From assembly GCA_016234985.1 (NCBI GenBank), contig JACRNK010000250.1, positions 1-8,777 of the forward strand: DNA of 8,777 nucleotides. Reading direction: 5' to 3'. This document shows positions 5,045 to 7,894 of the stretch, in pieces. This DNA is from Deltaproteobacteria bacterium (GTDB lineage: Bacteria > Desulfobacterota > GWC2-55-46 > UBA9637). Within the stretch, counting starts at the first letter, position 1. Each line of letters begins with the position of its first letter. A program made the translations under genes and the position numbers. The notes under the pieces are model-generated. The model did no database searches and was not told the DNA's origin. It saw only the letters and a list, made by a program, of their open reading frames with translations.

Positions 5045-7230
<2,186 letters not shown>

Positions 7231-7246
<16 letters not shown>

Positions 7247-7357
7247 CTTCGCATACCTGCGTTGCTCCTCGGCTCGTCGTTGCGGCGTATGCTGAAACAT
7301 ACGCCTCACTCCTCGCCTTCATCGCGCCTTGGTCTGCTTTGTTCTGACGCTCTGTAT
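7231..7357. repeat. 127-bp palindromic element (REP- or MITE-like)
   Basis: The 17-base arms at 7231-7247 and 7341-7357 are inverted copies with one mismatch. A nested 7-base pair follows, with one mismatch (7251-7257 with 7331-7337). A perfect 8-bp central hairpin, GGCGTATG (7284-7291) with CATACGCC (7298-7305), has a 6-base loop. Between these, the two halves share a CTCCTCG motif in direct rather than inverted orientation (7264-7270 and 7308-7314). There is no T-run after it, so a simple intrinsic terminator is unlikely. No transposase is encoded. It looks like a dispersed palindromic repeat, but only one copy is in the window. Confidence 0.6.
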
Positions 7358-7380
7358 GCTGCTCTCTTTATGTCGTTGTA

Positions 7381-7386: not shown

Positions 7387-7408
7387 AAGAAAGTAGGAAA
7401 TGCTTATA

Positions 7409-7894
7409 ATGAAAAAGCCTTATCTTGTCGTTCTGCTCATATCTTTGTCTTTCTTCCTGTCATGCGCAAAGGTTCAGGTTGAGGGGCTTCCTGCCCCTGA
7501 TTTTACTGCTGCGAGATTTGATGGAAGCAGTTTATCCCTTTCGGAATTTAAAGGCAGACCGGTTATCTTATACTGGTTTGCATCATGGTGACAGCGCTGT
7601 AAAGAAGAGGTCCCTCTCGTGCAGAGGGCATACGGTAAATATAAAGAAAAAGGGCTGGTTGTGATAGGCCTTGGTTTTCAGGATACCAAAGGCAACCTTA
7701 TACAATATGCGAAGGATATGAAGATAGATGACATGCAGTTGGTTTTTGATACCGAAGGCCGTATTGCCGCAAAATACGGCATTTCATACGGCGCAGGGGC
7801 TGTTTTTATAGACAGGAAAGGCATTGTCACGAAAAGGTTTATTGCCGGTTTTGGAGAAAAGGAATTCTCAAATTATCTCATGGCCTTATTTTAA
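7409..7894 (+). CDS. Probable selenocysteine-containing thioredoxin-fold lipoprotein (TlpA/ResA-like)
   Basis: Reading through the TGA at 7589-7591 gives one intact 161-residue TlpA/ResA-type protein, a family of envelope thiol-disulfide oxidoreductases. A signal peptide with a lipobox-like FLSC puts the lipid-bearing cysteine at C19. The fold then runs APDF (29-32), a core strand RPVILYWFASW (50-60), the active site U61-Q-R-C64, EEVPL (66-70), VVIGLGF (84-90) and FIDRKG (133-138). Relatives have W-C-x-x-C here, so the TGA sits exactly at the attacking cysteine. No other stop breaks the frame, and a bSECIS-like hairpin follows. The usual cis-proline before the FIDRKG strand is Ala129. The start at 7409 is preferred over the ATG at 7400, because AGGA (7395-7398) is too close to the latter. 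Without selenocysteine decoding this would be a nonsense-mutated gene. The 3' end overlaps the convergent TPR gene by 9 bp. Confidence 0.82.
7589..7629 (+). promoter_or_regulatory. TGA selenocysteine codon with bSECIS-like hairpin
   Basis: The TGA at 7589-7591 is followed by a stem of CCCTCT (7612-7617) with AGAGGG (7623-7628) around the 5-base loop CGTGC. G7610 pairs with C7629 while T7611 is bulged. The apical loop begins 26 bases after the TGA, within the range reported for bacterial SECIS elements. It carries G at its second position followed by U. A bulged U and a loop GU are also features of the E. coli fdhF element. The hairpin would be bound by SelB to deliver Sec-tRNA. Pairing was worked out by eye. 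Confidence 0.65.

Follow-up and report, generated by a model that had tools for sequence, protein, structure and literature searches.

Peroxiredoxin-like (Prx-like) UxxC selenoproteins of the PF00578 family and TlpA selenoproteins of the UGC type, U denoting selenocysteine (Sec), are tabulated in excerpts of two reviews (PMC9312934; PMC13188914), and the Prx-like UxxC type is listed there and in an extract of a further paper (PMC1794560) for several Deltaproteobacteria. We analyzed a stretch of 8,777 nucleotides (nt) from a Deltaproteobacteria bacterium (hereafter the window; contig JACRNK010000250.1 of assembly GCA_016234985.1) that carries a related gene interrupted by an in-frame TGA codon. 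This TGA, at 7589-7591, is most probably decoded as Sec by means of a hairpin at 7612-7628, which would yield one 161-residue ResA-like protein with a predicted membrane anchor. The conservation of the TGA, a stem with covarying pairs, purifying selection before and after the codon, the presence of sel genes and an active site rebuilt on a single branch together make this reading likely, and Sec insertion itself is strongly supported by sequence comparison.

The predicted protein falls within the broad description of Prx-like UxxC selenoproteins (PF00578 plus motif), apparently as a distinct variant. Like the Prx-like thiol:disulfide oxidoreductase selenoprotein (representative WP_010940744.1), as portrayed in those excerpts, it belongs to PF00578 and has Sec first in UxxC; going by that description it is set apart as a predicted lipoprotein with U-x-R-C and without the cis-proline. 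WP_010940744.1 was not recognizable by name among the 120 of 375 database matches listed, most of which are nameless. With the UGC-containing TlpA selenoproteins (NF041054, WAxxUGC) the window protein shares a ResA-like domain with selenocysteine, but its motif is WUxRC instead of UGC and it scores 42 bits against the cut-off of 300 of that 354-position model. Compared with ResA and DsbE (CcmG), whose fold it is predicted to adopt, it replaces Cys by Sec and the cis-proline by Ala and has Arg ahead of the second Cys, and it stays below both NCBIfam cut-offs (80.5 of 170 bits for ResA; 52.1 of 123.15 bits for DsbE). Peroxiredoxins resemble it in their AhpC-TSA and Redoxin matches and in lacking the cis-proline. 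However, Sec comes last in the TxxU motif of Sec-containing peroxiredoxins and first here, peroxiredoxins carry Arg at the cis-proline position (according to a passage of PMC2757866) where the window protein has Ala, and Thr or Ser is absent from its first motif position. No description of the U-x-R-C/Gly-Ala-Gly variant was found in open-licence PMC papers or NCBIfam. The initial annotation, which did not recall such a form as well described, thus holds for this variant, which appears to be new, and not for the wider Prx-like and UGC-type groups, which the excerpted reviews already tabulate.

The window is contig C223 of a 1.49-Mb genome (G000; 281 contigs, 62.8% complete). Translation of 7409-7894 on the forward strand yields a 161-residue frame interrupted by a single stop, the TGA at residue 61, in agreement with what had been annotated. 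Residue 61 occupies the place of the first, nucleophilic Cys of the thioredoxin-fold WCxxC motif (W60-U61-Q62-R63-C64). Gene calling with table 11 returns the two open reading frames that had been foreseen, 7400-7591 and 7619-7894, and ordinary annotation likely misses the predicted full-length selenoprotein. In line with this, eight of ten database matches in a single-sequence protein search are C-terminal pieces of 91-92 amino acids (aa) beginning past the TGA, and the GTG start of the C-terminal fragments sits inside the hairpin. Two full-length database proteins retrieved by profile search (P0012 and P0013) have Trp at the residue-61 site, perhaps from a gene caller reading TGA as Trp.

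To follow the codon in relatives, a six-frame search was run over 97 genomes (G000 and 96 relatives) at a threshold of E ≤ 1e-25. Ten genomes matched, and in nine of them, G000 included, the best match has one internal TGA; the tenth, G009, holds just a more distant Cys form. The other eight TGA-bearing matches share about 85 to 43% identity with the window's protein, and all nine TGA codons share a single column of the alignment. Synonymous change predominates on both sides of the TGA in six pairs compared by the Nei-Gojobori method; between G000 and G003, nonsynonymous (dN) and synonymous (dS) values are 0.081 and 0.233 before the TGA and 0.074 and 0.497 after it.

The set of members grew with two further searches. 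Of 395 genomes from the phylum, 26 had a match in a profile search, and the TGA was present in G000, G023 and the new G139. A scan of genome contigs with an alignment of the part following the TGA gave 14 loci, namely 11 with the TGA, one decayed copy in G104 and two distant Cys relatives. Nine of the 11 TGA loci were already-known contigs, and the two new ones came from a Thermodesulfovibrio metagenome-assembled genome (MAG; locus L101) and from a Myxococcales MAG (L103, 28% identity after the TGA codon). An earlier contig scan with a single protein had given no match; one of its six patterns had Cys over the TGA and the others covered variable stretches. The combined set of 12 members (the nine of the 97-genome search plus G139, L101 and L103) has the TGA in every case, over identities that range from 86% to about 28%, and eight of the 11 named member records are MAGs deposited as Deltaproteobacteria. 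The TGA thus appears to be neither a sequencing error nor decay, because it stays in the same codon in relatives; the homologue comparison proposed at the outset found no random stops elsewhere.

A hairpin of the bacterial selenocysteine insertion sequence (bSECIS) type follows the codon. The stretches after the TGA align without gaps in the 12 members, and alignment columns 24-29 pair with columns 35-40 (window 7612-7617 with 7623-7628). Standard pairs fill 70 of 72 cells over the 12 sequences, and all 54 cells in the nine-row set; in two pairs both partners vary, which affects eight cells. None of 500 shuffles attained the paired percentage or the covariation score of this stem, slid versions pair at 47-71%, and RNAalifold recovered the identical stem. 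In all members the loop reads C/G/T-G-T-G/A-C/A and lies 26 nt past the TGA. The bSECIS rules given in an excerpt of PMC13188914 are a loop of 3-9 nt, a stem of 4-16 bp, G in the first two loop positions, a spacing of 16-37 nt and a minimum free energy (MFE) of -7.5 kcal/mol or lower. The window hairpin agrees with these rules, having a 5-nt loop, 6 bp, G second in the loop and a spacing of 26 nt, and the MFE of 7606-7634 is -8.6 kcal/mol. No Rfam family reached its gathering score in the window. A terminator called on the minus strand at 7628-7612 is this hairpin itself, and the promoter and terminator scan was otherwise uninformative. Read by eye, the decayed copy in G104 retains the stem sequence CCCCCT/AGGGGG.

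The sel genes, which the initial annotation had proposed to look for, were found in part. In the set of relatives, selB is above the cut-off in all nine TGA genomes (and in 2 of 14 controls), as is selD, each copy with its own TGA, and selA in seven of the nine. In G000, selD has its TGA in SCAGUAAK, followed by GCGCAGGTTCTGCGC, so this gene is itself predicted to encode a second selenoprotein, of a well-known kind. The selB frame of G000 runs off a contig end, and its selA is cut to a 181-residue piece by a contig end and scores below the cut-off (187.8 of 267.9 bits). ARAGORN identified a tRNA-Sec gene (selC) in G005 and G006, of the same family as G000; a DNA probe from G005 found it in G001, G002, G004 and G006 too, and three genomes of the genus of G000 have probe matches. 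The Rfam tRNA-Sec model passes in G005, G006, G010, G037 and G054 and weakly in G052. At one of the probe-matched loci (L061; G004:C55:26144-26268) the tRNA-Sec match spans 125 bases compared with the 96 of the probe, as if an insert were present. In G010, selA consists of two adjacent frames (G010:C87:9611-10943, loci L040 and L042; 9611-10426 and 10431-10943) and is immediately followed by selB at 10979; the split suggests a frameshift or an assembly error.

Several observations weigh against decoding of the TGA as Sec through this hairpin. Folded as 29-nt stretches alone, just 7 of the 12 members reach -7.5 kcal/mol (L092, -3.4; L101, -5.1), L099 and L101 favor other pairings, and two stem pairs are broken in L101. 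Change on both sides is confined to two of the six stem pairs, and the counts of pairs with change and of pair types do not exceed those of shuffles (316/500 and 498/500). Folded as a single sequence, 7580-7650 does not stand out from its shuffles (z 0.47; 138/200 as good), and the short hairpin folded alone is modest (26/200 as good). Because the stem overlaps the P-L-V-Q/K-R/G codons, protein constraint accounts for part of its conservation. As to the machinery, selB passes in 71 of the 97 genomes, so that co-occurrence alone is weak evidence, and selA has no match in G023. Neither the Rfam model nor the probe found tRNA-Sec in the 62.8% complete G000, in G003 (93% complete) or in G023 (97% complete), and the Rfam cut-off is loose, with 5 of 14 controls passing. 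Finally, the decayed copy in G104 (L102, 440-790) has Arg at the position of U61 and Tyr at that of C64, and the gene is thus dispensable in that relative.

With the TGA taken as U, the protein matches AhpC-TSA (PF00578) at 76.9 bits (cut-off 26) and also Redoxin and Thioredoxin_8; the PF00578 domain is matched by all nine members. An AlphaFold2 model built from a 32-row alignment, with Cys modelled for Sec, has a predicted local distance difference test score (pLDDT) of 93.9 and a predicted template modeling score (pTM) of 0.86, and in it a ResA-type thioredoxin fold spans the whole soluble domain. ResA and DsbE are the top fold matches by Foldseek and VIA-align, a comparison covering the fold families in the structural match listing, and a sequence search of solved structures agrees. 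The TlpA/ResA-like assignment made initially is therefore borne out for the predicted fold and not for the ResA and DsbE family cut-offs or the cis-proline. Likewise, the lipid anchor proposed there is supported by Cys19, which ends a short hydrophobic stretch and is invariant in nine members; this stretch may be read as a lipobox, although a degenerate one in some members, the window included (F-L-S-C19).

The active site of the Sec forms appears rebuilt. It was compared in an alignment of 12 Sec-type and 39 Cys rows, made up of 42 of 51 profile hits (identical rows dropped) and the nine-row alignment. All 12 Sec rows have W-U-x-R-C and Gly-Ala-Gly, and all 39 Cys rows have Pro at the position of the Ala; the residue preceding the second Cys is Pro in 24 of the 39 Cys rows and never Arg. 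In a second set, whose 12 Sec-type rows include the two Trp-bearing database proteins, Pro is present in 20 of 20 database Cys homologues, hand-picked from the 120 listed of 375 matches. A maximum-likelihood tree of the 51 rows, in which P0012, P0013 and the G104 copy were left out, separates the Sec rows from all others by a branch supported at 100/99 and recovered in 100% of 200 bootstrap trees. The group nearest to them (94/91, not strong support) includes WCPCS redoxins, one of them encoded in the same genome. Within the Sec group itself, the relatives examined yielded no Cys form. L101 and L103 group inside the Sec clade, for which lateral transfer and mis-binning are both possible explanations.

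As stated in extracts of PMC2757866, the cis-proline is more conserved across the thioredoxin fold than CxxC, is likely part of the polypeptide-binding site and may prevent metal binding (Su et al. 2007, as cited there). The position of Ala at this site and the U-x-R-C motif argue against membership of the predicted protein among plain ResA/CcmG reductases. Among the structural matches is 2g0f, the P144A structure of E. coli CcmG. We take P144 to be the cis-proline of that protein and, by analogy with this structure, the thioredoxin fold seems to tolerate its loss.

Our best guess for the chemistry is an attack by the selenol followed by resolution through Cys64. SelB would bind the hairpin and deliver Sec-tRNA-Sec, and the protein, once exported, would carry its lipid on Cys19 and face away from the cytoplasm. 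The U61 selenol, aided by the neighboring Arg63, may then attack an oxidized substrate, Cys64 would resolve the intermediate as a U61-C64 selenenylsulfide, and a donor of the DsbD/CcdA type could re-reduce the latter. A small oxidant (peroxide or a low-molecular disulfide) is a more likely substrate than an apocytochrome, because the cis-proline, which normally aids binding of polypeptide substrates, is gone. The disulfide oxidoreductase activity suggested in the initial annotation can be put forward only with caution, because all 12 members carry Ala in place of the cis-proline that characterizes such enzymes. More tentatively, the group may be an obligate-selenium, lipid-anchored clade without a Cys counterpart, in which Sec gain went with cis-proline loss to give a new active site, U-x-R-C opposite Gly-Ala-Gly, and which could act in the envelope on a small oxidant, a metal or a metalloid and not on protein disulfides. 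The locus would add a hidden, mis-annotated subfamily of selenoproteins and link the use of Sec with a second alteration of the active site, in which the cis-proline is lost. As the group has no Cys form among the relatives examined and its site is rebuilt, swaps at U61 and A129 make the question testable in the roughly 140 residues of the predicted soluble domain.

Two other functions were considered for the selenoprotein, both of which we regard as unlikely. One is Sco-like binding or transport of a metal ion or metalloid by U61 and C64, without redox catalysis. The replacement by Ala, in all 12 members, of a residue that may exclude metals would suit such a role, as would the invariant acidic residues E67, D92 and D114 of the nine-row alignment, orientation to the site aside, and the NiFe-hydrogenase small-subunit gene that comes after the Sec gene in the same orientation in two of nine neighborhoods (G005 and G006). 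However, the nine-row alignment has no invariant His and no invariant Cys beyond the lipobox Cys19, no metal-transport or chaperone gene was recognized by eye in eight neighborhoods (five of whose proteins were scanned), and the hydrogenase genes do not adjoin the Sec gene in G000 or G003. To a similar degree we doubt that the protein is a conventional apocytochrome c reductase of the ResA/CcmG type: ResA and DsbE are its best matches in both sequence and fold, yet it misses both family cut-offs, Ala replaces the cis-proline throughout, and no cytochrome c maturation gene is present among nine window proteins scanned.

That the TGA is a true stop, belonging to a pseudogene or an assembly error and leaving unrelated or dead fragments, might be read from the two-fragment gene calls, the C-terminal pieces in the databases and the decayed G104 copy, but is highly improbable in view of TGA at the same codon of 12 otherwise open frames from different assemblies, low dN/dS past it and the covarying stem. 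Equally remote is decoding as Trp or by near-cognate read-through, for which P0012 and P0013 could be cited: all 39 Cys-type relatives use TGC or TGT at the site, sel genes and a bSECIS-type hairpin are present, and TGA terminates serS within the window. Decoding as Sec is thus retained, and the features of the locus are collected in Table 1.

Table 1. Positions of the predicted selenoprotein features in the window and of hydrogenase genes beside the gene in two relatives
Feature	Position	Strand	Basis or remark
Predicted selenoprotein lipoprotein coding sequence, 161 aa plus stop	7409..7894	+	Alternative in-frame start 7400; TGA-aligned frames in 11 other genomes
Predicted signal peptide and lipobox ending at Cys19 (codon 7463-7465)	7409..7465	+	Sequence reading; Cys19 invariant in nine-row alignment; lipidation presumed
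Active-site codons W60-U61-Q62-R63-C64	7586..7600	+	Translation, alignment
In-frame TGA, predicted selenocysteine 61	7589..7591	+	TGA in 12/12 members
bSECIS-type hairpin, 6-bp stem CCCTCT/AGAGGG, 5-nt loop CGTGC	7612..7628	+	20 nt after TGA; 70/72 cells paired
Gly128-Ala129-Gly130 at the cis-proline place of Cys relatives	7790..7798	+	Ala in 12/12 Sec-type rows, Pro in 39/39 Cys rows
NiFe-hydrogenase genes downstream of Sec gene	L050 5328-9001 (G005:C87); L051 5339-6427 (G006:C76)	Same strand as Sec gene	

In the window, the Sec gene is preceded by clpB, an Hsp20 gene, a trypsin-PDZ protease gene, a flavoprotein gene and serS, and followed on the opposite strand by a tetratricopeptide repeat (TPR) gene. 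Read by eye, no partner gene was common to the neighborhoods of all eight relatives. A small gene for a CPTCGQ membrane protein lies upstream of the Sec gene in five of nine genomes (G000, G003, G005, G006 and G010); in the window (6992-7246) its 84-aa product combines CPTCGQPI with a hydrophobic stretch and has no Pfam or NCBIfam match. In G005, the hydrogenase small-subunit gene is succeeded by a zinc-ribbon gene, the hydrogenase large subunit and a cytochrome b gene.

A dispersed repeat of about 130 bp is located at 7236-7366 of the window, with inverted-repeat ends (7231-7257 with 7331-7357) that are 81% complementary. Copies occur in all eight genomes searched of the order, some of the matches being partial: four in G000 (the window's own included), 14 in G003, 48 in G005 and at least 40 in G010, where 40 of 86 candidates were scored. 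On G010:C64, the Sec gene has two copies of the repeat within 1.1 kb.
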